A program made the position numbers and the translations under genes. Below, piece by piece: positions 39,863 to 55,260 of a DNA stretch of 55,596 nucleotides (positions are counted from its first letter, which is position 1; each line of letters starts with the position of its first letter). The DNA is taken from the NCBI GenBank assembly GCA_009379915.1, contig WHSV01000012.1, positions 1 through 55,596 of the forward strand. Direction: 5' to 3'. The notes under the pieces were generated by a model. It was not told the DNA's origin. It worked only from the letters and a program-made list of their open reading frames with translations, and did not search any database. The DNA comes from Actinomycetota bacterium. GTDB taxonomy: Bacteria; Actinomycetota; CADDZG01; WHSQ01.

Positions 39863-42505
39863 ATGGATTCGAGCATCATTCGCGATCGTTTTCTCGCGTT
39901 CTTTGAAGAGCGCGGGCACGCGCGCGTCCCCTCGGCCTCCGTGATACCGAACGACCCCTCGTTGCTGTTCACGAACGCCGGAATGAACCAATTCAAGCCG
40001 TACTTCGTCGGCGAGCAGACCGCGCCCTACAAGCGGGCCGTGAGCGTGCAGAAATGCATGCGCGCGGGCGGCAAGCACAACGACCTCGAGGAGGTGGGGC
40101 GAACCACCCGCCACCTGACCTTCTTCGAGATGCTGGGCAACTTCAGCTTCGGTGACTACTACAAGTCCGAGATCTGTTCCTGGTCGTGGGAACTGGTGAC
40201 CGAGGGCTGGGGGATGGACCCCGAGAAGCTGTGGATCACCATCTACGAGACCGACGACGAGGCGGAAGCCATCTGGGTGGACGAGGTCGGCGTCCCCCCC
40301 GAACGAGTTCATCGGCTCGGTAGGAAGGACAACTTCTGGGACATGGGCGTCGCCGGACCCTGCGGACCGTGCTCCGAGATCCACGTCGACCGCGGTGAGG
40401 CGTTCGGCCCGGCCTCCGAGCGAGGTCCGATCGACAATGATGAGCGGTACATCGAGTTCTGGAACCTCGTGTTCATGCAGAACGACTGCAACGCGGACAT
40501 CGAGCCGGTAGCGGACCTGCCGCGCAAGAACATCGATACGGGCGCGGGACTCGAACGCATCGCGATGATCCTGCAGAACAAGCGCTCAATACTCGAGACC
40601 GATCTCCTTCTCGGCATGATCGAGAAGGCCTCCTCGATCACCGGACGCGCGTACGGCGAGGACGAGCGCGTCGACTTCGGACTGCGCGTGCTGGCGGATC
40701 ACGGGCGCTCGGTAACGTTCCTGATCGCCGATGGCGTGCTTCCGTCGAACGAGGAGCGCGGTTACGTCCTGCGCCGGGTAATGCGCCGGGCCATTCGGCA
40801 CGCTCGCCTCATCGGGCACGAACAGGGAGTTCTGCCGGGCCTGGTCGACCGCTGTGTCGAGCTGATGGGCGATGTCTATCCCGAGATCGTCGAACGTCAC
40901 GAAGTCATCAAAGAGATCGTGAGCCGCGAGGAAGAGCGTTTCACGTCGACCTTGAAGCAGGGACTTTCCCTGCTCGAGAACGAGGTGGACAAAACGAAGG
41001 GAACGGGCGACTCCAAGCTCGGAGGTGACGTCGCGTTCAAGCTGCACGACACCTTTGGCTTCCCGATCGACCTCACCACGGAGATCGCGGCCGAGTCGGG
41101 ACTCGAGGTGGACCGAAGCCGGTTCTCGGAGTTGATGACCGCCCAGCGCGAGCGCGCACGGGCCGCTCGCGCCGGAGGAGGAGAGCAAACGGCAAACGAG
41201 GCCATCGCTGCGATCGCGCAGGGCCGTGGAGCAACCGAGTTCCTGGGCTACGAGCACCTGACGACCGAATCCGAGATCGTCGGCCTGGTCGATGGAGCCT
41301 CGAGCGTCGAGGTGGCAGGCGAAGGAAGCGAGGTCGACGTCGTTCTCGATCGCACGGTGTTCTACGCCGAGGGCGGAGGTCAGGTCGGCGATACGGGAAT
41401 ACTGCGCTCTTCGTCGGGCGAGGCGCGCGTCGCCGACGCACGACGGCTTCTGCCCGGGGTGACGGGGCACAGGGCGAGGGTCACGGCCGGCGAGCTGCGC
41501 GTGGGCGACGCGGTCGTGGGAGTGGTGGACGCTCGGGCCCGGCGAGGCTCCGAGCGAGCGCATACCGCAACGCACATCCTTCACTGGACGCTGCGCGACC
41601 GCCTGGGCGAGCACGCGACGCAAGCGGGCTCCCTGGTCGAACCGGGCCGCCTCCGTTTCGATTTCAATCACTTCGACGCGCTGGGCGACGCCCAGGTGGC
41701 GGACATCTCGGCCGAGTTGCAGTCGAGGGTGCTGACCGATGACGGTGTTCGTGCATTCGAAACGAGCTTCGATTACGCGAAGTCGATCGGGGCAATGGCA
41801 ATCTTCGGCGAGAAGTACGGTGACTTCGTGCGAGTCGTCGAGGTGGGGGACTACTCGAGAGAGTTGTGCGGTGGCACCCACGTCCCGCACACGGGCAACA
41901 TCGGCGTCGTCGTCCTGACGGGGGAGGGCTCGATCGGCTCCAACCTCCGACGTGTGGAGGCGCTGGTCGGCCAGGAGGGGATCGACCACCTCGCCCAGCG
42001 TGCAGCCTTGCTCGAGCAGACCGCGCATCTACTGCGCGCGCAGCCCGACGAGGTCGCGGAGCGCGTCGAGCGCCTGCTGGCTCAGAGCAAGGAGATGGAG
42101 CGCAAGCTTGCCGAAGTCGAGCGCAAGGGAGCGGACGCGGACGCGACCTCGCTCGCCGAGGCGGCCGTCGACCTCGACGGTACCCGGCTGGTCGTGGCCC
42201 GGCGCGATCTGACCGTCGATGCGTTGCGGAGCCTGGCCCAGAACCTGAGGGGCCGGCTGGGTTCCGCCGTCATCGTCCTCGGCTCTGCCGGTGAGGGACG
42301 CGCGAACCTGGTAGGTGCGCTGAGCAAAGACCTCGTGGATCGAGGATTGAACGCGCGCGATCTGCTGAAGCCGGGAGCCGACCTTCTCGGGGGAGGGGGC
42401 GGCGGAAAGCCGGACCTCGCGATCTCCGGCGGACCCAATTCGGGGGCCGTGGACGACGCGATCGAGGCCGTGACGGTTGCGGCGAAGGATGCCATTCGGC
42501 GGTGA
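39863..42505 (+). CDS. alaS: Alanine--tRNA ligase
   Basis: 880 residues, complete. The class II catalytic core starts with IRDRFLAFFEERGH and LFTNAGMNQFKPYFVG (near 32-47), with RKDNFWDMGVAGPCGPCSEI near 154-173. The editing domain has HTATHILHWTLRDRLG near 570-585 and the zinc-binding CGGTHVPHTGNIG near 669-681. The C-terminal C-Ala domain ends in GGGGGGKPDLA near 846. It charges tRNA-Ala and clears Ser/Gly errors. The stop overlaps the ruvX start as GTGA. Confidence 0.97.
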   Translation: MDSSIIRDRFLAFFEERGHARVPSASVIPNDPSLLFTNAGMNQFKPYFVGEQTAPYKRAVSVQKCMRAGGKHNDLEEVGRTTRHLTFFEMLGNFSFGDYYKSEICSWSWELVTEGWGMDPEKLWITIYETDDEAEAIWVDEVGVPPERVHRLGRKDNFWDMGVAGPCGPCSEIHVDRGEAFGPASERGPIDNDERYIEFWNLVFMQNDCNADIEPVADLPRKNIDTGAGLERIAMILQNKRSILETDLLLGMIEKASSITGRAYGEDERVDFGLRVLADHGRSVTFLIADGVLPSNEERGYVLRRVMRRAIRHARLIGHEQGVLPGLVDRCVELMGDVYPEIVERHEVIKEIVSREEERFTSTLKQGLSLLENEVDKTKGTGDSKLGGDVAFKLHDTFGFPIDLTTEIAAESGLEVDRSRFSELMTAQRERARAARAGGGEQTANEAIAAIAQGRGATEFLGYEHLTTESEIVGLVDGASSVEVAGEGSEVDVVLDRTVFYAEGGGQVGDTGILRSSSGEARVADARRLLPGVTGHRARVTAGELRVGDAVVGVVDARARRGSERAHTATHILHWTLRDRLGEHATQAGSLVEPGRLRFDFNHFDALGDAQVADISAELQSRVLTDDGVRAFETSFDYAKSIGAMAIFGEKYGDFVRVVEVGDYSRELCGGTHVPHTGNIGVVVLTGEGSIGSNLRRVEALVGQEGIDHLAQRAALLEQTAHLLRAQPDEVAERVERLLAQSKEMERKLAEVERKGADADATSLAEAAVDLDGTRLVVARRDLTVDALRSLAQNLRGRLGSAVIVLGSAGEGRANLVGALSKDLVDRGLNARDLLKPGADLLGGGGGGKPDLAISGGPNSGAVDDAIEAVTVAAKDAIRR

Positions 42506-42930
42506 TCGTCGGAATCGATCCGGGCGAGCGCAGGGTGGGTGTCGCGGTAGCCGACCTCGAAACTCGGTTCGCGCGCCCCCTCGAGGTCATCGACCGGCAA
42601 GAGGTCGACGCCATCGGGAGAATCTCGGCAATAGTGCAGGAAATGGGAGCGGATCTCATAGTGGTAGGGCGGCCGACCGGGCTCTCCGGCCGCTCGGGGC
42701 CGGCAGTTGAGTCACAGGGCGAGTTCGTTGCGGCCCTGAGGGAGGGTGTGTCCGTCGAGGTGCGGGAGTTCGACGAGCGTTTTACTTCGGTCGTCGCCGA
42801 TCGAGGGCTACGCTCCGCCGGCGTCAAGGGCAAAGACCTCAAGACGCGCCGGGACGCGGTGGCAGCCCAGATCATGTTGCAGGGCTATCTCGACGCGACA
42901 AAGCCATCGATCGAAGGGGAGCGGCCATGA
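42502..42930 (+). CDS. ruvX: RuvX/YqgF-family RNase H-fold nuclease
   Basis: 142 residues. IVGIDPGERRVGVAVAD near 2-18 holds the first catalytic Asp, VVGRPTGLSG near 53-62 is the YqgF loop, VREFDERFTSV near 87-97 the second acidic cluster and RRDAVAAQIMLQGYLD near 116-131 the last Asp. YqgF proteins process the 5' end of pre-16S rRNA; a Holliday-junction role was proposed earlier. It is coupled by overlaps to both alaS and mltG. Confidence 0.93.
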   Translation: MIVGIDPGERRVGVAVADLETRFARPLEVIDRQEVDAIGRISAIVQEMGADLIVVGRPTGLSGRSGPAVESQGEFVAALREGVSVEVREFDERFTSVVADRGLRSAGVKGKDLKTRRDAVAAQIMLQGYLDATKPSIEGERP

Positions 42931-43958
42931 GTCTGACGCGGCGCGGCAAGGCCGTGGCCACACTCGTCGTCCTCTTCCTTCTCCTCGGGATTCCGGCGGC
43001 CGTGGGCGTCGTGTACCTGAACTCGATCGGGGTCACGTCGTCGAGCTCGCCCGGTGAGCCGGTCGAGGTCGAGATTCCCGAGGGCACCACCATGACCGAG
43101 GTCGGCGAGATTCTCGAGGCGGAGGGAGTCATCAAGTCGGCCCAAGGCTTCAGGTTCGTCTCGTTCCTGGGGGGAGGCGACGAGGGGATTCAGGCCGGGA
43201 CCTACGAACTGTCGACCGGTCTGTCCGCTCGCGACGCGCTCGACAGGATGCTCGAGGGCCCCGAGGTGAGGTTCATCACGGTCACCTTTCCCGAGGGGGC
43301 GTGGTTGCCGGAGTTCGCCGAGAGGCTCGACGAGGACACCAGCATCAGGGGCCGGGATTTCCTAAGGGTGCTCGAGTCCGGCGAGGTGAAGTCGAGCATC
43401 CTCCCCAAAGACTCGAACAACTTCGAGGGGCTGCTGTTTCCCTCCACCTACCAGGTGGTCGAAGAGGACACCGCGCAGACGCTTGCCCAACGTCTGGTCG
43501 ACGAGACCGAGAAGCAACTGGCGAAGGTCGACACCTCGAGGGTCGAGGCGATGGGGTATTCGAAGTACGAGATCCTGAACGTCGCCTCGATGATCCAGGC
43601 CGAGGCCGGAGTGAGCCGGGACCGCGGCAAGATAGCGCGCGTGATCTACAATCGGCTCGACGAGAACATCGCGCTCGGTATCGACGCGACGGTGATCTAC
43701 GCGCTCGGGGAGAGGAAGAACTCGCTTACCTCCTCGGACCTCGAGATCGACTCGCCCTTCAACACGCGCAAGGTCGCGGGGCTTCCGCCGACCCCCATCG
43801 GCGCGCCGGGCGCGGAGGCCATTGAGGCGGCCGCGAAGCCGGTCGAGGGACCCTGGCTCTATTACGTGCTCAGCGACTGTGACGGAAAGCATGCGTTCTC
43901 CGTCGACTACGAGGACTTCCTCGCGGACAAGGCCGATTATCAGAACCTGACCTGCTGA
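42927..43958 (+). CDS. mltG: Endolytic murein transglycosylase MltG (YceG-like)
   Basis: 343 residues. The N-terminal transmembrane helix is at about 9-31 (VATLVVLFLLLGIPAAVGVV), followed by a LysM-like beta domain (VEIPEGTTMTEVGEILEAEG near 49-68) and the catalytic domain with the Glu in ASMIQAEAGVSRDRGKIA near 217-234 and ALGIDATVIYALG near 246. It ends nascent glycan strands at the membrane. The ATG overlaps the ruvX stop and its own stop overlaps aroE. Confidence 0.95.
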   Translation: MSLTRRGKAVATLVVLFLLLGIPAAVGVVYLNSIGVTSSSSPGEPVEVEIPEGTTMTEVGEILEAEGVIKSAQGFRFVSFLGGGDEGIQAGTYELSTGLSARDALDRMLEGPEVRFITVTFPEGAWLPEFAERLDEDTSIRGRDFLRVLESGEVKSSILPKDSNNFEGLLFPSTYQVVEEDTAQTLAQRLVDETEKQLAKVDTSRVEAMGYSKYEILNVASMIQAEAGVSRDRGKIARVIYNRLDENIALGIDATVIYALGERKNSLTSSDLEIDSPFNTRKVAGLPPTPIGAPGAEAIEAAAKPVEGPWLYYVLSDCDGKHAFSVDYEDFLADKADYQNLTC

Positions 43959-44815
43959 TGGCCGTGGGAGGCAAGAGAGACGCGTCTCATTTCGTCGGCG
44001 TGCTCGGCTGGCCTCTCGAGGTGACGCTGTCACCCCTCATGCACAACGTGGGCTTCCGCCGGCTAGGCCTCGACTGGATCTACTTGCGCTGGCCCGTCGC
44101 GCCGGACGATCTCGACCACGCCGTGCGCGGTTTGCGCGCCCTTGGAGCGGACGGAGCGAACGTGACCATGCCGCACAAGGAGTCGATCGTCGAGCACCTC
44201 GATTCTCTCGACGAGGATGCCGGGGCGATCGGCGCGGTCAACACGGTCCGGCGCTCCGGGAAAGAGCTGATTGGTCACAACACCGACGTCGTCGGGTTCT
44301 CGGAGTTCCTGGTCGAGGACGCAGGCTTCCAACCGGATGGCACCAGCGCGCTCGTGCTGGGGGCCGGGGGAGCGGCGCGCGCGGTCGTCAAGGCACTCGG
44401 GAATCTGGGGGCCGGTGACGTCACGATCGCGGCGCGCAACCGGGAGGCGGGGGCGAGCGTCGCGGCTCTGGCCGACGATGCGACGCGGTCGGCGCGCGCC
44501 ATCGGCTGGGAGGACGCGTCGGATCTCATCGATGGCGTCGACCTCGTCGTCAACGCGACGCCCATCGGGATGCGGGGCGAGGCCCTGCTGAGCCGGGGCA
44601 CTTTCAGGCCGAACCAGTGTGTGATCGACCTCATCTACTCGCCGCCGACGACTCCGCTGATCGAGCGCGCCCGGGCGAGCGGTGCCAACGGGTGGGGCGG
44701 ACTCGGGATGCTGGTGCGTCAGGCGGCCGCCTCGTTCGCCATCTGGACCGGCCAGCAGGCCCCCCTGGACGCCATGTCGGCCGCCGCGATAAGGGGGATC
44801 GGCCACCATCACTAG
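43958..44815 (+). CDS. aroE: Shikimate dehydrogenase
   Basis: 285 residues. The substrate site is LGWPLEVTLSPLMHN near 15-29, the catalytic Lys is in ANVTMPHKES near 67-76, the NADP loop is LGAGGAARAVVKALG near 132-146, and NATPIGMRGE near 203 closes the family pattern. It reduces 3-dehydroshikimate in aromatic amino-acid synthesis. Its ATG shares the last base of the mltG stop. In mycobacteria other aro genes follow soon; here the pilus/GTPase cluster follows instead. Confidence 0.94.
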   Translation: MAVGGKRDASHFVGVLGWPLEVTLSPLMHNVGFRRLGLDWIYLRWPVAPDDLDHAVRGLRALGADGANVTMPHKESIVEHLDSLDEDAGAIGAVNTVRRSGKELIGHNTDVVGFSEFLVEDAGFQPDGTSALVLGAGGAARAVVKALGNLGAGDVTIAARNREAGASVAALADDATRSARAIGWEDASDLIDGVDLVVNATPIGMRGEALLSRGTFRPNQCVIDLIYSPPTTPLIERARASGANGWGGLGMLVRQAAASFAIWTGQQAPLDAMSAAAIRGIGHHH

Positions 44816-44940: not shown

Positions 44941-45789
44941 ATGAGCAAGGCCGAACAGCTAGCAGCCGTACTTGACGAGTTTCTGTCGGTGTCCCTCGAT
45001 GTCGAGGCCGCCGCCGTCGTCAGTTCGGATGGATTGCCGATGGCCTCGGCGCTACCACCGGACGTCAAAGAGGACCGTCTCGCAGCGATGAGCGCGGCCC
45101 TGCTCAGTCTGGGCGAGCGCGCCGCGGAAGGACTGGACAAGGGCGAGCTTGCGCAGGTCTACGTCGAGGGCTCGGCCGGCAACGTCGTCCTCATGGCCGC
45201 CGGCCGGCACGCGGTCCTGGTTGCGATGACGGCGAAGCACGCCAAGGCCGGCCTCGTCCTCTACGAAATGCGAAGCAGCGCCCGCCGAGTCGAGCAGGTG
45301 CTCGAGGAGCCCGCGAGCATCGACCGGAACTACGGTCGTCACGAGGCGGTCGTGTCGCGGCACAGCGTCGACCCGACTCCCGCCCCGCCGCCCGAGGAGA
45401 GCCCCTTCACCGCGATCTCCGAAGCCGAGCCCACGACGCCCGCCTGGGAGGACCAGGCGGTTCAGGCGACTCCGGACTGGGAGGCCCAGCCGGGCGCGGA
45501 ACCGGCCTCGTCCACGGAGTGGGCGGAGCAAGCTCAGGGCGACGTCGATGAGGGCTCCGAACCGTGGGGCGAAGAGCCCGGGGGCCAAGATCAGGGCGGA
45601 CACGCCCACGAGGCCACCGGCCCACAGGGCGAGCAACAGCCCGACGAGGGACACCAGGTGTCCGACCAGAGCCACGGTTCGACCGAGCAGTGGTCGCAGG
45701 AGCAGTCCGAAGATGTACAGCGGGAGGACCGACCGAAGCAATGGGACGACGAACAGAGGGACGAGAACTCGTCCTTCACGTCCTGGTAG
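44941..45789 (+). CDS. Roadblock/LC7-domain protein with long disordered tail
   Basis: 282 residues from the ATG at 44941; an ATG 10 codons upstream lacks a ribosome-binding site. Residues 1-120 are a roadblock/LC7 domain (LDEFLSVSLDVEAAAVVSSDGLP region, then VYVEGSAGNVVLMAAG and HAVLVAMTAKHAKAG), the fold of MglB and of conservon roadblock proteins, which act on small GTPases. From ~135 the chain is Gln/Glu/Gly/His-rich and presumably disordered. A partner GTPase gene lies two genes downstream, supporting a GTPase-regulator role. Confidence 0.85.
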   Translation: MSKAEQLAAVLDEFLSVSLDVEAAAVVSSDGLPMASALPPDVKEDRLAAMSAALLSLGERAAEGLDKGELAQVYVEGSAGNVVLMAAGRHAVLVAMTAKHAKAGLVLYEMRSSARRVEQVLEEPASIDRNYGRHEAVVSRHSVDPTPAPPPEESPFTAISEAEPTTPAWEDQAVQATPDWEAQPGAEPASSTEWAEQAQGDVDEGSEPWGEEPGGQDQGGHAHEATGPQGEQQPDEGHQVSDQSHGSTEQWSQEQSEDVQREDRPKQWDDEQRDENSSFTSW

Positions 45790-45817
45790 ACGCGAGCAAG
45801 AGGGGATAGGGAGCTAA

Positions 45818-47107
45818 GTGCTCAAAGGGACACTCGACGACTTCAGCTTGCCGGACATCTTCCGGCTTGCCGCGCTCGCCAACAAGACGGGCCGGCTCGA
45901 GGTCGAGCGCCGCAACGGAAGCGGGCGGGTTTACTTCCGCGACGGGGAGGTCTACTACGCAGAGTCCACCAAGTCCAAGGAACGCCTCGGGCGCAAGTTG
46001 ACGCGCTCGGGCTGGGTGACGGACCAGCAGCTCAGGCGCGCCATGGTCGAACACGAGCAGACCGGTCGTCGAGTGGGCGAGATCCTCGTCGAGCAGGGGG
46101 CCGTTGAGGAGGAGCAAATCGAGTGGGCGGTTCGCAGCCAGATCGAGGACGGCGTCTTCGACCTGCTGCGCTGGGACCTCGGTGCTTTCGTCTGGGAACC
46201 GGACGTCGAGATCGAGGTCGAGGTGCCTCTCACGGTCACGGTGGAGAACCTGATCATCGAGGCATCGCGTCGCCTGGACGAGATCTCGCAGATCAGGAAG
46301 AAGATCCCCTCGGCCGACGTGGTTCTCGCCATGGCCGCACGCCCGCCGGACGGCGCTCACCAGATCAACATCACCTCCGAGGAGTGGCAGGTCCTGGTTC
46401 TCGTCGACGGCCGCCGCACGGTCGAGGACATCGCAACCAGCACCGGCGCCGAGGCGTATCAGACGACGAGACTGCTGTTCGGCCTCATGAACGCGGGGCT
46501 GATCGAGCACAAGCACGTGCCCGTCGAAGGCTCGGTCGAATCCGACCGGCCCTCCTCCAGATCGTTGCAGGATAGGCAGGGCGGGGCGGGCTCGGCAGGA
46601 CCGCAGGGAGGCGACCGCTGGCACAAGTCCGCCGACCCGGACAGCAACGTGGTCGAGTTGCAGCGGGGCTCGGACGCCGAGCCCGAGGGTGACCAGGAGC
46701 GGCCGGCCGTGACGACGCCACCCGCGCCTCCTCCCGCTCCCGAGAGCTACCCCGAGGACGAGGACTCGTTCGTTGCCGATCGCGGCCCGGAGCAGGGTCG
46801 AGCGCCCAGTCCGCCTCACCCCCGTCGAAGCGACGATGAGGGCGAGGACGAGGTCTCCCAGCGCGAGCAGGTTCCTCCCCCCTCCCCGAGACGGCCCGGG
46901 GGGCCGAGGGTCGACCGTGCCGCCGTCGTGCGAGAGCTCGCGGGGCTCTTCAACGAAGAGAACAAGCCGCGCCCCCGGGCGGTGCCGTCGGGCGACAGGA
47001 ACGAGAGCGAGCGGCCCGAGCCCACGCAGAAGCGGCGAGTCGAGGACGACGACCAGGTCGACCGCAAGCTCATCGGGCGCATGATCGACGGCGTGAAGGA
47101 GCTGTGA
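45818..47107 (+). CDS. DUF4388 (PATAN-like) protein with C-terminal winged-helix and disordered region
   Basis: 429 residues. The DUF4388 domain is at 1-110 (LKGTLDDFSLPDIFRLAAL, then GRVYFRDGEVYYAES). Next comes a helical part with VGEILVEQGAVEEEQIEWAV, which resembles the N-terminal MshEN-type fold also seen in the PilB of this cluster. A winged-helix-like part at ~185-225 follows (VLVLVDGRRTVEDIA). After ~240 it is Pro/Glu/Arg-rich, with two short conserved-looking segments: DRAAVVRELAGLF near 368 and DRKLIGRMIDGVKEL at the end. PATAN/DUF4388 proteins often work with GTPases and roadblock proteins in motility or pilus control. Confidence 0.85.
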   Translation: MLKGTLDDFSLPDIFRLAALANKTGRLEVERRNGSGRVYFRDGEVYYAESTKSKERLGRKLTRSGWVTDQQLRRAMVEHEQTGRRVGEILVEQGAVEEEQIEWAVRSQIEDGVFDLLRWDLGAFVWEPDVEIEVEVPLTVTVENLIIEASRRLDEISQIRKKIPSADVVLAMAARPPDGAHQINITSEEWQVLVLVDGRRTVEDIATSTGAEAYQTTRLLFGLMNAGLIEHKHVPVEGSVESDRPSSRSLQDRQGGAGSAGPQGGDRWHKSADPDSNVVELQRGSDAEPEGDQERPAVTTPPAPPPAPESYPEDEDSFVADRGPEQGRAPSPPHPRRSDDEGEDEVSQREQVPPPSPRRPGGPRVDRAAVVRELAGLFNEENKPRPRAVPSGDRNESERPEPTQKRRVEDDDQVDRKLIGRMIDGVKEL

Positions 47108-47108
47108 G

Positions 47109-47708
47109 ATGAGGCGCGTCCCGAAGGCGAAGGCTCACAGATCGACCTCACAGCGACCACTGAAGATCGTCGTCACCGGACCGTTCGCTGCCGGAAAGAC
47201 CACTCTGATCGAGACCATCAGCGAAGTGGCGATCGTCGCCACCGAACGAGACGTCAGCGAGCACGCCCTTGAGTCGGGAAAGACGCGGACGACGGTCGCG
47301 ATGGACTTCGGCAGGCTGACCTTCGGCGAAGACTGCTCGTTGTTCCTGTTCGGTACCCCCGGCCAGCGCAGGTTCGAGATGATGTGGGAGATCCTGTCCG
47401 AGGGCATGATCGGTTTCATCCTCCTGGTCCACGCGGCCGATCCTCGCTCGCTCGAGGAGGCGGCGCACATCTTCGAGCAATTCAAGCGCTACGCGGACGT
47501 TCCTTACCTGGTGGGCGTCACCCACTCGGACCTCACCGATACGCCGGACGAGGTGCTCGTCGAGGACGCGCGGAGGCGCCTGGCCCTGCCGGATGAGGTC
47601 AAGGTGGTCGTCTGTGACCCCAGGAACAGGGAGGACGTGAAGTCGCTGATGCTGACGATCCTCTACGAGGTCCACCAGCGCATCGAGGCCAAGGCTGTGG
47701 CCGGATGA
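47109..47708 (+). CDS. Ras-like small GTPase (MglA/conservon-type)
   Basis: 199 residues. G1 is VTGPFAAGKTTLIE near 22-35, the switch-I Thr is likely in KTRTTVAMDFGRLT, G3 is FGTPGQRRFEMMWE near 81-94, and G4 is VTHSDLTD near 137, where Lys of the usual NKxD is replaced. This matches the bacterial ATP/GTP-binding family that includes Streptomyces conservon CvnD and is related to MglA. A basic ~18-residue N-terminus precedes the domain. It begins 1 base after the DUF4388 gene and its stop overlaps the next ATG, so stoichiometric production is likely. Confidence 0.88.
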   Translation: MRRVPKAKAHRSTSQRPLKIVVTGPFAAGKTTLIETISEVAIVATERDVSEHALESGKTRTTVAMDFGRLTFGEDCSLFLFGTPGQRRFEMMWEILSEGMIGFILLVHAADPRSLEEAAHIFEQFKRYADVPYLVGVTHSDLTDTPDEVLVEDARRRLALPDEVKVVVCDPRNREDVKSLMLTILYEVHQRIEAKAVAG

Positions 47709-48142
47709 GGGGCTCACGCCGAGCAGCACGGAGTGCGCCGCGCGGAAGGAAACGACGAGGCCTGTGGTCGCTCATCAGCAGGCTGTTCGGCACGCCCAAG
47801 GGACGCCACGTGGCGGGCGCCCCCCAGCCGCCACGCCCGATTGCGATCGAACCCGGCCCCCGGGTAGCCGCCGAGGCCCCCGAGACCCCGCCGTCCGAGT
47901 CCTCGGGTGCCGAGGCGGCTCCCATTGGGGAATCCGAGATCGCCGACTTCACGCCGGCGTCGGCCTCCGTCGCAACGGCCGTGCAGGCATCGGTCCCGGC
48001 AGCGACGACCCCCGCCGGGCTGGCCTCGGTGCGGCTCATCTTCACCGACGGCAGCGTCGTGCCGTTGCCCGCGGGCTCCGTTGAGGAGCGCCAGGCTGAG
48101 TACCTCGCCAGACGCGTCCTGGAGGCCGGCGGACGCGGGTAA
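47705..48142 (+). CDS. Small basic/disordered protein of the GTPase cluster
   Basis: 145 residues, ATGA overlap with the GTPase gene. The N-terminus is very basic (RRAARSAPRGRKRRG), with an amphipathic stretch LWSLISRLFGTPKG near 20-33. The middle is Pro/Ala/Ser-rich and the end (VRLIFTDGSVVPLPAGS then RQAEYLARRVLEAG) looks folded. I recognise no family. The tight overlap suggests it works with the GTPase, perhaps as membrane or partner tether; that is inference. Confidence 0.6.
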   Translation: MRGSRRAARSAPRGRKRRGLWSLISRLFGTPKGRHVAGAPQPPRPIAIEPGPRVAAEAPETPPSESSGAEAAPIGESEIADFTPASASVATAVQASVPAATTPAGLASVRLIFTDGSVVPLPAGSVEERQAEYLARRVLEAGGRG

Positions 48143-48265
48143 CCAAGGCCCTGCGGTAGCCTCAAAACCCCCTTCCTTCGGCTTTAGTCGAGGCGGCGAC
48201 AGCCGATAAAATCCTCAAGAGAGAACAAGGGTCTTTTGACCTCCATCTTCGAGCTTTAGGGGCCA
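48143..48265 (+). promoter_or_regulatory. Likely internal promoter and leader before the PilB gene
   Basis: A 123-base gap that is AT-richer than its surroundings. TAAAAT at 48207-48212 resembles a -10 box, with TTAGTC (48184-48189) 17 bases upstream as a weak -35. The same stretch can fold: CGGCT (around 48180) pairs with AGCCG (48201-48205), with an inner GTCG/CGAC pair. An AGGGG precedes the ATG at 48266. Confidence 0.4.
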
Positions 48266-49966
48266 ATGAGCGTGAGCACCCAGGTACGCGCGGGAGGGCA
48301 GCTGGATCAGCTGCTTCTGGCTCGCGGCCTGCTCAGCGACGAACAGCTCACCGAGGCCAGGGAGACCGCCCAGCAGAAGGGACGATCGCTCGGCAGGGTG
48401 CTCATCGAGCTCGGCTACGTCACCGAGGCCGGTCTGGTGGCCATTCTGGCCGAGCAGCTCGGCCTCGAGTTCATCGACCTCGGAGACGCCTCTCTCGACG
48501 CTTCGGCGATCGCGCTCGTCCCCGAGGCCACCGCTCGCCGACACTCATGCATTCCGGTTCGTTTCGAGGACGACAAGCTCGTCCTCGCCATGGCGGACCC
48601 GGCCAACGTGGTCGCCGTCGACGACATCAGGGCGCTCACCAAGCGGGACGTCGTCACCGTGGTCGCGACCAAGGTCGACGTCCAGGGCGCGATCAGCCGC
48701 TACTACCGGCTCGACTCGGCGGCCGAGAGCCTCGCCGAGGAGGCCGCCGCGGCCACCGACGCCGAGCAGAAGTCCCTCGAGGAGGCCGTGGGCTCCGCGG
48801 GGGCCGAGGACGCGCCGATCATCAAGCTCGTCAACCTCCTGATCACCCAGGCCGTCAACGACCGCGCGTCGGACATCCACATCGAGCCGCAGGAGCGAGA
48901 CGTGCTCGTTCGTTACCGCGTGGACGGGGTGCTTCACGAGGTCATGCGCCCGCCCAAGTCGGTCCAGGCCGGCATGACGTCCCGCCTGAAGATCATGGCG
49001 GACGTCAACATCGCGGAGCGACGCCTTCCGCAGGACGGCCGCATCAGCCTGACCGTGCAGGGAAAGCAGATCGACATTCGAGTAGCGACTCTGCCGACGG
49101 TTCATGGCGAGAAGATCGTCATGCGAATCCTGGACAAGTCCAGCGTGCTGCTGAGGCTCTCGGACCTTGGGTTCCTGCCGGGAAACTACGAGCGATTCGA
49201 GAAAAGCTTCGTCAAGCCCTACGGCGAGATTCTCGTCACCGGTCCGACCGGTTCGGGAAAGTCGACGACGCTCTACGCGACGCTGAACATCCTCAACAAG
49301 CCCGATCGGAACATCATCACCGTGGAGGACCCGGTCGAGTATCGCCTCCCCGGAGTGAACCAGGTGCAGACCCATCCCAAGGCGGGCCTGACGTTCGCCT
49401 CGGCTCTGCGCTCGATCCTGCGAGCCGACCCCGACATCGTCCTCATCGGCGAGATTCGAGACCGTGAAACCGCCCAGATCTCCACCGAGGCGGCCCTCAC
49501 CGGTCACCTCGTGCTCTCGACTTTGCACACCAACGACGCTCCGAGCGCTCTAACGCGACTCGTCGAGATGGGTATCGAGCCGTATCTAGTGTCATCGGCT
49601 CTGGACTGCATTCTCGCCCAGCGGCTCGCCCGGAAGCTCTGCGAGAAGTGCAAGGAGCCGTACCTTCCGACCGAGGAGGAACTGCATTCGTCCGCCTTTC
49701 CGCTGCGCGGAGAGGAAGCACCGAAGTTGTTCCAGGCGGTCGGCTGCGCGGCCTGTGCCGGCACGGGCTACAAGGGCCGTATGGCGCTGCACGAGGTCAT
49801 GCCCGTCACAGAGGAGCTCGAGAAGCTCACGGTCGAGGGAGCGTCGAGCGAGGTCATGAAGAAGGTCGCCATCGAGCAGGGAATGCTAACGCTGCGAGAG
49901 GACGGGATGGAGAAGGTGCGCATGGGCCACACCTCGATCCAGGAGATCCTCCGAGTGGTCGTCTAA
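48266..49966 (+). CDS. PilB/GspE-type secretion ATPase
   Basis: 566 residues. The N-terminal MshEN domain (LDQLLLARGLLSDEQLTEA, then LGRVLIELGYVTEAGLVAIL) occupies ~10-150. The ATPase has RASDIHIEPQERDVLVRYR near 202-220, Walker A TGPTGSGKSTTLYATL near 325-340, the Asp box and Walker B region RADPDIVLIGEIRDRETAQ, and a four-Cys zinc site (CEKCKEPYLP ... CAACAGTGYKG near 460-505). It should power assembly of type IV pili or a type II-like system. No pilC, pilT, pilin or prepilin peptidase gene lies in the window, so partners must be elsewhere. Confidence 0.93.
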   Translation: MSVSTQVRAGGQLDQLLLARGLLSDEQLTEARETAQQKGRSLGRVLIELGYVTEAGLVAILAEQLGLEFIDLGDASLDASAIALVPEATARRHSCIPVRFEDDKLVLAMADPANVVAVDDIRALTKRDVVTVVATKVDVQGAISRYYRLDSAAESLAEEAAAATDAEQKSLEEAVGSAGAEDAPIIKLVNLLITQAVNDRASDIHIEPQERDVLVRYRVDGVLHEVMRPPKSVQAGMTSRLKIMADVNIAERRLPQDGRISLTVQGKQIDIRVATLPTVHGEKIVMRILDKSSVLLRLSDLGFLPGNYERFEKSFVKPYGEILVTGPTGSGKSTTLYATLNILNKPDRNIITVEDPVEYRLPGVNQVQTHPKAGLTFASALRSILRADPDIVLIGEIRDRETAQISTEAALTGHLVLSTLHTNDAPSALTRLVEMGIEPYLVSSALDCILAQRLARKLCEKCKEPYLPTEEELHSSAFPLRGEEAPKLFQAVGCAACAGTGYKGRMALHEVMPVTEELEKLTVEGASSEVMKKVAIEQGMLTLREDGMEKVRMGHTSIQEILRVVV

Positions 49967-49991
49967 GCACCGAACAACACTTTGGTACGCG

Positions 49992-50026
49992 AAGAAGGGG
50001 GGCGATGTTTCCTCGCCCCCCTTCTT
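49992..50026. terminator. Bidirectional rho-independent terminator
   Basis: A perfect 14-base-pair stem: AAGAAGGGGGGCGA (49992-50005) pairs with TCGCCCCCCTTCTT (50013-50026) across a 7-base loop. On the plus strand a short pyrimidine-rich tail follows. It sits between the convergent pilB and M36 protease genes and can stop transcription from both sides. Confidence 0.88.
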
Positions 50027-50037
50027 TCATTCTTCGG

Positions 50038-52386
50038 CTATGGCGCGCAGTCGGGATGTGTGTCGAATGCCTCCGTTCCGTCGCTGCGGCTCTCGCTGCT
50101 GCCCTGATCGGCGCTGAACCCCAAACCGCGCTTGGCGAACGCGCTCCAGATGAGGCACTGGTTGTCGCCGTCGGTCAACGCCTGGTCGGCGGCGAGGATG
50201 GCGTCACGCCCGTCGACGAAGCCCGGTCTGCAAGGCTGGAACTTCATTCCGTCCGTGACGAGCTGGATGGCGAGGTTGTTGCCACCGGTGGTCCAGCGCT
50301 TGTAGACATCATTCTTGAAGCCGTGCTCGTCGATCAGGTTCCAGTGCATCTCCCACAACATCGTGGCCCACACGTAGCCGACGCCGTGAGGAACGGCCAG
50401 CGTTTTTACATCGTCGTACGTCGACGGATTGATGGACGTGTTCGTCGAGTAGGCCGTCGGCCGGATGCCCTGAGAGTTGCGGCTCTCGTTGAAGAGGGCG
50501 TAGTTACCGACGCCGCGCGACTCGCGGTCATCGGTTGACCGTCCCGTAAGCGCGACCGCGAGATAGTCGCTCCACCCTTCGCCCATCTGCTCTTGGTTAC
50601 CGAGGCAACCAACGGTTGAGGGTCCAGCGGTCAGACGGTTGGAGATCCCATGGCCGTACTCGTGCGTGATGATTCCTGCATCGAGGTCTCCGTCGCGCAT
50701 GACGCCGACCTCCGGGTCGCGCGCGATGTTGCCGGTCGCGGGCAGCCCGGCTTTGATCGTGTTGCCGGCATCGAGCGAGACCATCGCAGAAGGAATGGTG
50801 ATGGTCGGGTCGGCCCCGCCCATGGCGCCGGGGTTTCCCGCGATGTTGTTGGCAACCAGAGCCGCAGTCGCGCCCGCATCCTGAGCGTTCTTGACCTTCA
50901 CGGTGAAGTTGCAGATGCCTCGGTCCAGCAGTGCGATCGAGCCTGAGGGGAAGCCGACCAACGGCTCACAGGCATCGGTTGTGGTACCTACTCCGTCGTC
51001 GACCAGAACGATGTCTCCCGAGACGCCTTCGGTGGAGAACTCGGGCCCGAATGCCGCGCCGCTTGCCTCGTAGGTGCCCGCTGCCGAGGACGGAGGATCG
51101 ATGGTCACGACATTCGGCCGCGCGAACTGCCACAGATACATCTGCATGCGCGGACGCAATCCGTCTACGGGAGTCGAGAAGTTTGCATTGTTGAGGCCGC
51201 CGCCGTCCTGAGCCTCCCCGCGCACGTCGTCACCGCCGAGTCCGTCGTTGCCGTAGTTGTTGACTTGGAAGTTCCCGGCCTCTTCGGTGAACCCGTACTC
51301 GTAGAAGACGTCGTGAATGATGTTGTTCCAGTAGAAGAGGTTGGTAACCGCCGCATCCGAGTACGTATGTGGATGCTGAGTGAAGTCGATCGGGAAGTCG
51401 AACTCGAGCTCTGGACCGCCGTCCGGATCGCTTCCAGGGTCGGGCACACCGTCGTTGTCGTGGTCCGTGTACGCGTGAACGTTGTTCCCGCGGGTGACCG
51501 TGTACTCGGCGCCCTTGTCGCCGTCGATGTCATGCCAGCCGAAAGGCGAGGCCGACTTCGTGGCCGGGTCCTTCACGAGCGTGCGGGCGCCGTCGAGCGG
51601 GCTTTCGAAAGGCAGCTCGAAGACGCGATAGCTCGCCTTATTGGGGTTTCGGGCCGCGGCGTCAGGAATGGTCGCGTCCGCAGCGCGACCTGCCGGCGCG
51701 ATCACTGCACCAGTCGCTTGAACGTCGTCGTGGTCGACGAGATCGACCTTGGCGAGCAACTCGCCCGTCTCGGCATCGACGCTCGCGTCCCAGTAGTGGT
51801 CACCGTCGACCTCTTCGATCGAGACATTCCACGCCAGGCGAAGATCGCCATCCACCAGCTGGTAGACGAGTTTGGCGGGGATCGTTCGAGTAGATACCCC
51901 ACCGCTGGAGACCTCGGTCTTGCGCTGAACTCCGCGCGGACTTTCGAGGACTCTGATGTCCTTGGTGGTCTCGAGCCCCAGTTCGTCGGCCGCGTCGACG
52001 GCGGCTTCGGGCGCCGTGAGAGCGACCGTGCCCGAGGGGGGCGGAAGGTTAACGAACCTGTTGCCGACGAAGAGAACATTTCCCTCGCGGTCGATGTTGA
52101 GAGACATGTTCGCCTGGGCTACATCGATTCCACCGCGCTGCTGGCGCAGGTAGACGTGCGTAACGCGGTTGTGATCCGACTGATATGAGTCGGTTACTCG
52201 GATCTCCGCGATGTCGTCGGGTGTCAGACCCAATTCTGCTGCGTGCGCACGTACGTAGTCGACGGCGATCTGGTTCGGATCGTCCGGCGCGCCCAAGGCG
52301 CTTGAGTTTCCGAACGCCATCGGCAGCGCGAGCAGCGCCGCCAGCAGGATCACGACCGCGCGCCCTCCCCTAAAGGGCTTTCTCAT
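50038..52386 (-). CDS. Secreted M36 (fungalysin-type) metallopeptidase with PA domain
   Basis: 782 residues. A signal peptide (VVILLAALLALPMAFG, about 11-26) is followed by an FTP-type propeptide (about 40-210; DSYQSDHNRVTHVYLRQQ). The catalytic M36 domain has the zinc motif ITHEYGHGISNRL near residue 576 and the downstream Glu in MGEGWSDYLAVALTG near 600-614. A PA domain is inserted at about 425-540 (ALLDRGICNFTVKVKNA), an arrangement found in bacterial M36 proteins. It should be exported and self-processed. It is monocistronic, between a terminator and an AT-rich leader. Confidence 0.92.
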   Translation of the reverse strand: MRKPFRGGRAVVILLAALLALPMAFGNSSALGAPDDPNQIAVDYVRAHAAELGLTPDDIAEIRVTDSYQSDHNRVTHVYLRQQRGGIDVAQANMSLNIDREGNVLFVGNRFVNLPPPSGTVALTAPEAAVDAADELGLETTKDIRVLESPRGVQRKTEVSSGGVSTRTIPAKLVYQLVDGDLRLAWNVSIEEVDGDHYWDASVDAETGELLAKVDLVDHDDVQATGAVIAPAGRAADATIPDAAARNPNKASYRVFELPFESPLDGARTLVKDPATKSASPFGWHDIDGDKGAEYTVTRGNNVHAYTDHDNDGVPDPGSDPDGGPELEFDFPIDFTQHPHTYSDAAVTNLFYWNNIIHDVFYEYGFTEEAGNFQVNNYGNDGLGGDDVRGEAQDGGGLNNANFSTPVDGLRPRMQMYLWQFARPNVVTIDPPSSAAGTYEASGAAFGPEFSTEGVSGDIVLVDDGVGTTTDACEPLVGFPSGSIALLDRGICNFTVKVKNAQDAGATAALVANNIAGNPGAMGGADPTITIPSAMVSLDAGNTIKAGLPATGNIARDPEVGVMRDGDLDAGIITHEYGHGISNRLTAGPSTVGCLGNQEQMGEGWSDYLAVALTGRSTDDRESRGVGNYALFNESRNSQGIRPTAYSTNTSINPSTYDDVKTLAVPHGVGYVWATMLWEMHWNLIDEHGFKNDVYKRWTTGGNNLAIQLVTDGMKFQPCRPGFVDGRDAILAADQALTDGDNQCLIWSAFAKRGLGFSADQGSSESRSDGTEAFDTHPDCAP

Positions 52387-52563: not shown

Positions 52564-53496
52564 ATGAAGCGCGGCGTAAGCAAGAGACAGCGGGCGGCGG
52601 GCATGTCTATTCGTGGGGCGCTGACGGCGGTCGCCCTTCTTCTCGGCGGCGGCTGCGTGATCGGAGGCGATGGGGCCTCTGGGGAGATCACGGTCGGAGC
52701 GGTGACCTTCGCCGAGAACCAGATCGTCGCCGAGATGTACGCGCAGGTCCTGGAGGACGCGGGCTACACGGTCGGCCGTCGTTTCAATTTCCAGAACCGC
52801 GAGGCGCTCCAGCCGGACATGCGCTCCGGGACAATCGACCTGGCTCCCGAGTATCTGGCGTCCCTTCTGACCACCCTCGATCCGGAGGCGGAACCGTCGC
52901 CTGACTCTGAGGACAACGTGTCCGAGTTGCAGCGGCGGCTCGAGGACGCCGGTCTCACGCTGTTGCAACCCTCGGAGGCAAACAACACGAATGCCCTCGT
53001 CGTGGACTCGGCTACTGCGGACCGGTTCAGACTCGAGAAGGTCAGCGACCTCGAGCCGGTCGCATCGACACTGGTTTTCGGGGGCCCGCCGGAATGTCCC
53101 GAACGACGCTTCTGTCTGCAAGGTCTGCGCGACGTATACGGCTTACGCTTCAAGGAATTCAGGCCGTTGGACGCGGGCGGCCCACTCACGGCTGCTGCAC
53201 TCGGCAGCGAGAGGATCGACGTGGCCCTGCTCTTCACCACCTCGGGAATCATCGCTGAAAGAGGTTGGGTGGTGCTCGAAGACGATGGGGGACTGCAGGC
53301 CGCCGACAACATCACGCCGCTGGCTCGCAACGATGTCGTGACCCAAGAGCTCGCAGATCTCATCGACGCCGTGAGCGCCAGCCTGACAACCGAGACCATG
53401 ACGGCGCTGAACGCGCGGGTGGAGGTCCGCAATGAAGACTTCCGAGAGGTTGCAAGCGACTTCTTACAGCAGGAGCAGCTCCTTAGTCGGAGCTGA
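52564..53496 (+). CDS. ProX/OpuAC-type glycine betaine/choline-binding lipoprotein (orphan)
   Basis: 310 residues. The signal peptide ends in VALLLGGGC (Cys about 37), a lipobox, so it is an extracytoplasmic lipoprotein. The body follows the OsmF/ProX pattern: ITVGAVTFAENQIVAEMYAQ near 46-65, SGTIDLAPEYLASLL near 87-101, LRDVYGLRFKEFRPLDAGGP, and ERIDVALLFTTSGIIAERGW. It should capture a quaternary amine or similar solute. No permease or ATPase gene is next to it, which is unusual. Its 3' end overlaps the convergent histidine-kinase gene by 14 bases. Confidence 0.82.
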   Translation: MKRGVSKRQRAAGMSIRGALTAVALLLGGGCVIGGDGASGEITVGAVTFAENQIVAEMYAQVLEDAGYTVGRRFNFQNREALQPDMRSGTIDLAPEYLASLLTTLDPEAEPSPDSEDNVSELQRRLEDAGLTLLQPSEANNTNALVVDSATADRFRLEKVSDLEPVASTLVFGGPPECPERRFCLQGLRDVYGLRFKEFRPLDAGGPLTAAALGSERIDVALLFTTSGIIAERGWVVLEDDGGLQAADNITPLARNDVVTQELADLIDAVSASLTTETMTALNARVEVRNEDFREVASDFLQQEQLLSRS

Positions 53497-55066
53497 GGTC
53501 GGTGGCTGAGTTCTCGTCCTCGGTTGCAGCCAAACTCGCGTCGGGCATTGTCACGGGAAGCACCACCGAGAACATCGAGCCCCCTCCCACGACGCTGTCG
53601 ACTTCGAGCCTGCCGCCCATCAACTCCACGAGGCTCTTGGAGATGGTGAGCCCGAGGCCAATTCCGTTAACCGGCGTGGCCTCGGCCCCCAGCCGGTCGT
53701 AGGGTTCAAACAGCCGCCCGAGTTTTTCGGAGGGGATGCCGGGCCCCTCGTCGGTGACTGTGAGATGCAGGTGTGACTCGGTACGAAAGCAGCCCACCGC
53801 GACGCGGCCACCGGGCCGGTTGTACTTGATGGCGTTGGAGATCAAGTTGATGAGGACCTGATTCAGTCGCTGCAGATCGGCCGAGACGGTGGCCGTGGCG
53901 CAATCGCCGAGCGAGACCTCCACCTTGACGTCGTGTTCTGCTGCTACCTGCGAGACCATCGCCACCGCTTCCCGGACCGCTCCCTCGATTGCGACCGGGT
54001 GCATGGAAATCGACAGACCTCCCGCCTCGACGCGAGCGATGTCCAGGACGTCGGTGAGCACACCCGCGAGGTGTTTTCCGGCCTGGCGGATGCGCTCGAT
54101 GATCTCGATTTGCTCGGGCTTGAGGTCCTGGCTCGCCAGGTAATGAGAGAACCCGATCATGGCGGTAAGTGGGGTGCGGAGCTCGTGACTCGTCTTGGAG
54201 AGGAAGTCGCTCTTGGCCCAGTTGGCCTTCTCGGCGACATCCTTGGCCTGTTCCGCGCTTTCCTTGGCCTCTCGCAGCCTGCGCTCCCTGTCGGCCAGCA
54301 GGGTGGATGCCTCTCCCAACGCTTCGGCGGCTTGACCCACCTCGTCGCGCCCCGCCGGCCGGAGTGGCAGGGGGGCGCCCTTCGCCAGACGATGTGCACT
54401 GTCGGAGATGCGCTGGACGCGGTGAGCGACACCGGTGGTGAACAGCAGCATTGCGATCACCCCGCCGGCGAGGCCCAGTCCGATGGTGCCGGCGAATACG
54501 ATGCGAAGGTCTCGCTGGGAATCCTCGACCTGACCGAGGCGGTCGGCCAGTCGCTGCTCTTCTTCAGAGAGCATCGCTCCCAGCTCATCCCGCAGTTCTC
54601 GCATGAGCCGGTCGTCGCGGTCGAGAATCTGCTTCCTCGACCCTCCCAACCGAGTCGCAGCAGCCCGAAGCTCACCGAGCACCTCGAGCTTTCGGCCCGC
54701 GAGAAAACGTATGTTGGCCGCACGCACGGCCTGCGAGGTGTTGTCGCCGACCAGTCTCTCGAGCGTCGCCAGAGCCCCGGGAAGCTCGTCGAAGGCCGCT
54801 TCGTAGGGATCGAGGAAGGCCCTGTCCTGGGACAGGTCGTAGCCGCGCACACCCGTCTCGGCGTCCAGCAGCAGGTTGAGGACGGTCTGGATTTGATTGC
54901 GGACGTGCACCGTCTGGTCACCGGCGCGCTTTCTCTCGTCCGCCTCGCTCTGCACCAGATAGCCGAAGAGCGTCGCGGTCACCAGGGCCGCCATGGGGAG
55001 AGAGACCACGACGAGGCCCTTTTTTCGCAAAGGCAGGTTGGCCCACCTCGTGGAGATCCGACCCAT
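53483..55066 (-). CDS. CHASE3-domain sensor histidine kinase
   Basis: 527 residues from the ATG at 55066; a reading 14 codons longer exists. An N-terminal helix (LVVVSLPMAALVTATLFGYLV) precedes a CHASE3 domain (LLLDAETGVRGYDLSQD near 60-76), a second membrane helix near 185-205, HAMP-like and coiled-coil parts, the HisKA box SHELRTPLTAMIGFS near 300, the N box NLISNAIKYN near 420, and G boxes TDEGPGIP and NGIGLGLTISKS. The phospho-accepting His is present. There is no receiver domain and no response-regulator gene beside it, so its partner is elsewhere. Confidence 0.9.
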   Translation of the reverse strand: MGRISTRWANLPLRKKGLVVVSLPMAALVTATLFGYLVQSEADERKRAGDQTVHVRNQIQTVLNLLLDAETGVRGYDLSQDRAFLDPYEAAFDELPGALATLERLVGDNTSQAVRAANIRFLAGRKLEVLGELRAAATRLGGSRKQILDRDDRLMRELRDELGAMLSEEEQRLADRLGQVEDSQRDLRIVFAGTIGLGLAGGVIAMLLFTTGVAHRVQRISDSAHRLAKGAPLPLRPAGRDEVGQAAEALGEASTLLADRERRLREAKESAEQAKDVAEKANWAKSDFLSKTSHELRTPLTAMIGFSHYLASQDLKPEQIEIIERIRQAGKHLAGVLTDVLDIARVEAGGLSISMHPVAIEGAVREAVAMVSQVAAEHDVKVEVSLGDCATATVSADLQRLNQVLINLISNAIKYNRPGGRVAVGCFRTESHLHLTVTDEGPGIPSEKLGRLFEPYDRLGAEATPVNGIGLGLTISKSLVELMGGRLEVDSVVGGGSMFSVVLPVTMPDASLAATEDENSATDLSSD

Positions 55067-55260
55067 GTCGTGAAGCCTCACAGGTCGACGCCCGTCTTGT
55101 AAACCCACCTCGCAAGACGAGAGCCGGAAGGGCGGATGAGATCATGCGGGCGCTACTCGGGGTTGGAGGGGTGCTCGATCGAAGATCTGCGGTGGCGGGG
55201 AGAGGCGACGATGAGGCCTGGCCGTCGGAACAGGCGACGTGTCCGGCAGGACGAAAGACA
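55067..55260. promoter_or_regulatory. Upstream region of the histidine-kinase gene
   Basis: About 190 bases without a convincing ORF between the kinase start and the terminator of the gene to the right. It must carry the minus-strand promoter of the kinase unless the two genes are one unit. I saw no clear -35/-10 pair. Confidence 0.25.

Follow-up and report, generated by a model that had tools for sequence, protein, structure and literature searches.

What does a small Ras-like GTPase do next to the gene of a pilus extension ATPase? We analysed a stretch of 55,596 nucleotides (the window), which is the entire contig C116 of an actinomycetotal genome of 3.39 Mb assembled in 158 contigs and 95% complete. 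An earlier note on this DNA had listed the order roadblock, DUF4388, Ras-like GTPase, small basic protein and PilB, and had suggested that the GTPase may act directly on PilB. The order is exact, with all genes on the forward strand, and the spacings of 28, 1, -4 and 123 bases are borne out by the coordinates of the reading frames (Table 1). The strong terminator reported to close the set corresponds to a terminator-like stem-loop that folds on either strand, with 15 pairs and about -40 kcal/mol over the folded 95-base stretch, and was not flagged by a simple terminator scan.

The genome holds one Robl_LC7 protein, one DUF4388 protein and one GTPase of the window's family. Since each of these three is single-copy, the probability of a chance proximity to pilB would be well under 1%, and for the gene order chance is excluded because the same order recurs in relatives. 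An unrelated peptidase gene and a gene for a substrate-binding protein separate the module from a CHASE3 histidine kinase. The kinase is the same-strand neighbour of a reading frame cut by the contig end, whose sequence KLDRSSLVRELSDLLR resembles a motif of the DUF4388 linker (motif B); an identity search with this frame led to no identification, and it is possibly a further part of the system.

Table 1. Features of the module and its surroundings (positions in the window)
Feature	Position	Strand	Remarks
alaS	39863-42505	+	named from sequence reading, no family match
RuvX/YqgF-like gene	42502-42930	+	named from sequence reading, no family match
mltG	42927-43958	+	YceG/MltG by Pfam
aroE	43958-44815	+	named from sequence reading, no family match
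Roadblock/LC7 (MglB-like) protein	44941-45789	+	long acidic tail; Robl_LC7 E 5e-17
DUF4388/PATAN protein	45818-47107	+	429 aa; PF14332 E 3e-32
MshEN/GSPII-like helical insert of DUF4388	45977-46150	+	residues 54-111; two 24-residue motifs, 5-residue spacer
Winged-helix-like segment of DUF4388	46370-46522	+	residues 185-235; weak sub-cut-off Pfam match; structure comparison
Linker motif B of DUF4388, VDRAAVVRELAGLF	46910-46951	+	residues 365-378; predicted helix 367-375 in disordered linker
Tail A of DUF4388, VDRKLIGRMIDGVKEL	47057-47104	+	residues 414-429; predicted helix 412-428; candidate GTPase-docking helix
Ras-like GTPase, MglA family	47109-47708	+	ATP_bind_1 E 5e-15, Ras E 6e-8
Small basic protein	47705-48142	+	no Pfam family match
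Basic amphipathic N-terminal helix of small protein	about 47756-47791	+	from helix properties
C-terminal mini-domain VxLxFxDG of small protein	48029-48121	+	recurs between GTPase and PilB
PilB, extension ATPase	48266-49966	+	N-terminal MshEN; T2SSE E 1e-142, MshEN E 8e-24
Stem-loop after pilB	about 49991-50027	either	strong, terminator-like
M36 fungalysin-type peptidase with PA domain	50038-52386	-	right after pilB, where relatives have pilT-pilC
CHASE3 histidine kinase	53483-55108	-	3.5 kb from module
Reading frame, 3' end cut by contig end	55311-55595	-	Pro/Glu-rich linker, then KLDRSSLVRELSDLLR (motif B)

The GTPase is a single-domain protein of 199 residues and thus below the 240-residue limit of the MglA family. 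It contains the conserved motifs GPFxxGKTT (GPFAAGKTT in the window), TTVAMDFG and FGTPGQ, the first being the P-loop and the last the TPGQ-type G3, and its Pfam Ras match lies above the cut-off. The roadblock gene is found two genes upstream, within the four genes used to delimit MglA-family neighbourhoods. A PDB search with the GTPase yielded Ras proteins and spurious repeat proteins, with no MglA among the matches listed; for the roadblock protein the matches among solved structures include CvnB5. Membership in the conservons was rejected. Between aroE and pilB there is neither a histidine kinase-like protein of the CvnA type nor a DUF742 protein, as the earlier note had stated. Moreover, in a rapidly built phylogeny of 104 GTPases with SH-aLRT support only, the conservon GTPases (CvnD) form one group (support 99) excluding the window GTPase, which groups with its class relatives (support 98).

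If the GTPase controls the pilus motor, it is of special interest which protein forms the link to PilB. In the phylum, 205 of 396 sampled genomes contain a PilB match with an E-value of 1e-140 or lower. From this list we hand-picked 40 pilB regions of other Actinomycetota families, mostly one per family, and they therefore represent a spread and not a random sample. Thirteen of the 40 have a family member of the GTPase encoded near pilB, in several arrangements and with one weak match of 48 bits, and six have a DUF4388 protein encoded there without a GTPase (L171, L172, L173, L178, L200 and L206); in the others neither was found near pilB, some of these regions being cut by contig ends. In Chloroflexota and Aquificota the GTPase lies beside DUF4388 with no pilB nearby.

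The predicted amphipathic helix at the C-terminus of the DUF4388 protein, tail A, is associated with the presence of the GTPase. It is present in 50 of 57 DUF4388 proteins encoded beside a GTPase and in none of five beside pilB without GTPase, while its pattern matches 3 of 3917 other reading frames, and it extends over Actinomycetota, Chloroflexota, Aquificota and one Caldisericota record. The patterns of tail A and motif B were written after the tails had been seen. On the tree, tail loss and GTPase yield only one or two independent events, so that a test on independent pairs cannot reach significance. The net charge of the tail varies from -3 to +4 across the proteins whereas the hydrophobic pattern stays constant, a behaviour more in keeping with binding to a protein than to a membrane; a membrane-binding helix is less likely because the sign of the charge varies. 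For comparison, the C-terminal helix of MglB was described to bind an allosteric pocket of MglA (PMC6785124).

Accordingly, a direct action of the GTPase on PilB is not supported as worded in the earlier note, and DUF4388 is the likelier link, since it occurs beside pilB without GTPase, pairs with the GTPase where no pilB is nearby and carries the GTPase-associated tail. It appears unlikely that PilB, for example its MshEN domain, is bound and directly switched by the GTPase, with DUF4388 as a separate regulator: the six families lacking the GTPase, the pilB-less pairs of Chloroflexota and Aquificota and the position of the tail on DUF4388 all speak against it, although the GTPase gene abuts or overlaps pilB in L177, L181 and L208 (gap -3) and in L209 (gap 2), where the VxLxFxDG mini-domain was not found between the two.

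For the DUF4388/PATAN protein we see about an even chance that it is an adaptor which passes both the GTPase state and c-di-GMP to PilB. The roadblock protein would determine which nucleotide the GTPase carries, in the manner of MglB and MglA, and the GTPase would dock onto the tail of DUF4388. DUF4388 would in turn contact PilB via its core and perhaps also via motif B, and its insert would be the candidate site for c-di-GMP. The small protein would tether the complex to the membrane close to the base of the pilus. As output, PilB would be recruited or activated, so that GTPase state and c-di-GMP would together control pilus extension.

Regarding the contact to PilB, motif B-like sequences were detected in 9 of 24 pilB-linked DUF4388 proteins, where shuffled sequences give an expectation near zero; the enrichment is only suggestive, as the pattern postdates sight of the tails and Chloroflexota proteins have shorter linkers. 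The pilB-less group contains two matches, both from class members whose contig stops before pilB. Motif B-like sequences are also found in the proteins encoded before pilB in GTPase-lacking loci, and in loci such as L205, L207 and L210 these proteins end in a conserved VDRVLLAxEFSxLLQ segment. We did not retain a roadblock identity for the pre-pilB proteins of L205, L207, L176, L179 and L210, since the three scanned had no Pfam match other than a roadblock one, which was below the cut-off or absent.

In the small protein, a Pro/Ala-rich linker joins the N-terminal helix to the mini-domain, which nine loci, the window included, encode between GTPase and PilB. In the small proteins of L185 and L190 a hydrophobic segment takes the place of the basic N-terminal helix, and judged by sequence the N-terminus of the small protein seems membrane-anchor-like.

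The DUF4388 assignment is clear, with 111.5 bits for PF14332 against a cut-off of 25. Structure prediction is confident for about residues 1-230 and shows mostly disorder beyond, apart from the two helices of motif B and tail A. Within the confident part, the insert resembles the c-di-GMP-binding MshEN/GSPII domain in sequence and in predicted structure. It matches NF053729 (E 3e-14) and has sequence matches to Thermus thermophilus PilF and Vibrio cholerae MshE. Its four-helix fold is predicted with helices at 57-63, 69-82, 86-92 and 98-117, and the model superposes on c-di-GMP-bound PilF-GSPIIB (8pdk/8pfa) with 1.2 A over 57 residues and on MshE with 1.9 A over 59 residues. The tandem MshEN motif score of the window protein is 20 of 22, compared to a best value of 17 among 3174 unlabelled reading frames. 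Motif II is complete under the relaxed published pattern, whereas in motif I Thr occupies a hydrophobic position and the terminal Gln is replaced by His, the latter change being shared with the non-binding PilF GSPII-A; in the relative G009, motif I ends in Gln and has Leu at position 1. The insert may bind c-di-GMP. Signalling by c-di-GMP is plausible in this genome, which has nine GGDEF matches, and in Thermus c-di-GMP binding to PilF-GSPIIB affects twitching (PMC11731258). Nevertheless, more distant pilB-linked DUF4388 proteins reach a motif score of only 11 to 15 of 22, which counts against a c-di-GMP adaptor. In the window PilB, Gln and Ser occupy the motif starts where Arg is expected, and binding of c-di-GMP by PilB itself is doubtful because these residues are replaced. 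A hand-over of c-di-GMP sensing from PilB to DUF4388 that would be specific to the window was discarded, as one or both arginines are missing from numerous PilB proteins across the phylum.

The winged-helix-like segment of DUF4388 raises the question of whether the module controls transcription instead, with the winged helix binding DNA, the GTPase setting its activity and a pil promoter being regulated. Group 3 MglA systems were proposed as transcription regulators (PMC4316618). Structure comparison of DUF4388 returned winged-helix folds at Z of about 6 to 9.6, but the winged-helix matches are weak and the best structural matches include GATOR1 subunits, which do not bind DNA. Linkage alone does not separate this possibility from an adaptor role of DUF4388; we regard it as improbable.

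Within the class, we sampled 24 genomes, nine of which contain a match to the GTPase with an E-value of 1e-10 or lower; a query with the single GTPase against genome contigs had found no relative, but an alignment-based query did. The same block is present in five relatives (G002, G005, G012, G016 and, over two contigs, G003), where it is preceded by alaS-mltG-aroE and followed by pilT-pilC wherever the contig extends that far. G002, G012 and G016 share the order alaS, mltG, aroE, roadblock, DUF4388, GTPase, pilB, pilT, pilC, and in G002 the operon continues with pilM, pilN and aroC. The PilT homologue of G002 has an MshEN domain of its own (L032:11994-13634). G005 shows the same order and has an additional set of DUF4388, GTPase and roadblock genes inserted after aroE and ahead of this module (L033:7970-11365), and such an extra set was also seen in G006 (L037:1878-5671). 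The linkage to pilB, whose absence from related genomes had been named as a reason to abandon the idea, is conserved beyond the class. Two named Actinomycetota records (L059 and L072) have the same set followed by pilB-pilT-pilC, and a record of Coriobacteriia (L086), cut at its upstream end, has GTPase-pilB-pilT-pilC.

Such linkage could also reflect common descent of neighbouring operon genes without any functional connection to the pilus. The housekeeping genes alaS, mltG and aroE also stay beside pilB, being upstream of the module or of pilB in most uncut loci examined. Moreover, G010 has alaS-mltG-aroE-pilB-pilT-pilC without the GTPase module, and the module is therefore dispensable for keeping the operon. 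However, the module accompanies pilB in differing arrangements, as it lies between two pilB copies in L185, L188, L190 and L209 and upstream of aroE in L192, L193 and L201, which renders mere inheritance quite improbable. In L193 (genome G037), a region at L193:1907-7125 has three consecutive roadblock-like genes followed by a DUF4388 reading frame of 1315 residues. Taken together, we read the block as a regulatory cassette that is conserved in type IV pilus operons of Actinomycetota and is likely functional.

Is the motor itself part of a pilus system in this genome? The window PilB narrowly misses the NCBIfam equivalog cut-offs of both TIGR02538 for PilB (652.6 vs 675.65 bits) and GspE (622.8 vs 630.25 bits). 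We assign it to PilB because of the synteny with pilT and pilC in relatives, whose pilB genes directly before pilT-pilC are about 76% identical. Whereas pilT, pilC and pilin genes come right after pilB in relatives, they do not adjoin it in the window genome. Of a complete set comprising PilB, PilC, PilT, PilM/PilN and pilins, every part but PilC was located: pilM and pilN upstream of aroC on C58, PilT-like ATPases on C109 and C133, and pilin-like genes, whose complete lack would have told against the earlier idea, on the 3.2-kb contig C79. The PilC of G002 had zero matches in the window genome, and pilC may lie in an assembly gap, given the 158 contigs and the completeness of 95%. The T2SSF matches were read as probably Tad-type because the genes are short and paired. 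On C66, C26 and C147 of G000, T2SSE and paired short T2SSF genes are Tad/Flp-like by size and pairing. That the module is left over from a pilus system in decay, as the missing pilC and the opposite-strand peptidase gene in place of pilT-pilC could suggest, is very improbable with all five genes open and intact and with pilM/pilN, pilin-like and PilT-like genes elsewhere in the genome.

Routes from an MglA-type GTPase and from c-di-GMP to the pilus motor are known in few lineages. If our reading of DUF4388 as an adaptor is true, a module embedded in the pil operon across many Actinomycetota would connect GTPase state and c-di-GMP to PilB in a compact and testable way, and candidate binding segments are already named. 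More tentatively, and with some doubt, many Actinomycetota pilus motors could be gated by a dual-nucleotide switch, in which a c-di-GMP-binding PATAN adaptor with a docking helix for an MglA-type GTPase is encoded beside pilB together with a membrane-anchored small protein. At the level of titles and abstracts, no description of this locus was recognised in the open-access literature. In sections of their paper, Wuichet and Sogaard-Andersen already noted MglA/MglB genes near PATAN genes (PMC4316618), and the helical insertion of PATAN had been named by Makarova et al. 2006, as cited there; unlike the present finding, the description in these sections does not include a conserved pilB link in Actinomycetota. 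New are the MshEN-like nature of the DUF4388 insert, the GTPase-associated tail helix and the mini-domain of the small protein in nine loci.

The module resembles several known systems in part. It shares with the conservons (CvnA-D) of the same phylum a roadblock protein and an MglA-family GTPase in one operon, but differs from them in the lack of a kinase and of DUF742 and in a GTPase outside the conservon clade. As in MglA/MglB of Myxococcus xanthus and T. thermophilus, a small Ras-like GTPase is coupled to a roadblock protein. Type IV pili of Myxococcus are stimulated by MglA (PMC7519303, PMC7668184), which acts via the effector SgmX, whereas the window module adjoins pilB and has a DUF4388 partner. 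With the MshEN/GSPII domains of MshE, PilF and PilB the insert appears to have in common a predicted four-helix module with two 24-residue motifs and a 5-residue spacer, yet these domains form the N-terminus of an ATPase in the known cases and an insert of DUF4388, with motif I ending in His, in the window. Finally, PATAN/DUF4388 is tied to type IV pilus control in the cyanobacterial response regulators PixE, LsiR and PixG, and Synechocystis PixE is reported to interact with PilB1 (Jakob et al. 2019, as cited in PMC7690835). These regulators combine PATAN with CheY, whereas the PATAN protein of the window has a winged-helix-like segment, a long linker and a tail, and is encoded next to a GTPase and a roadblock protein.
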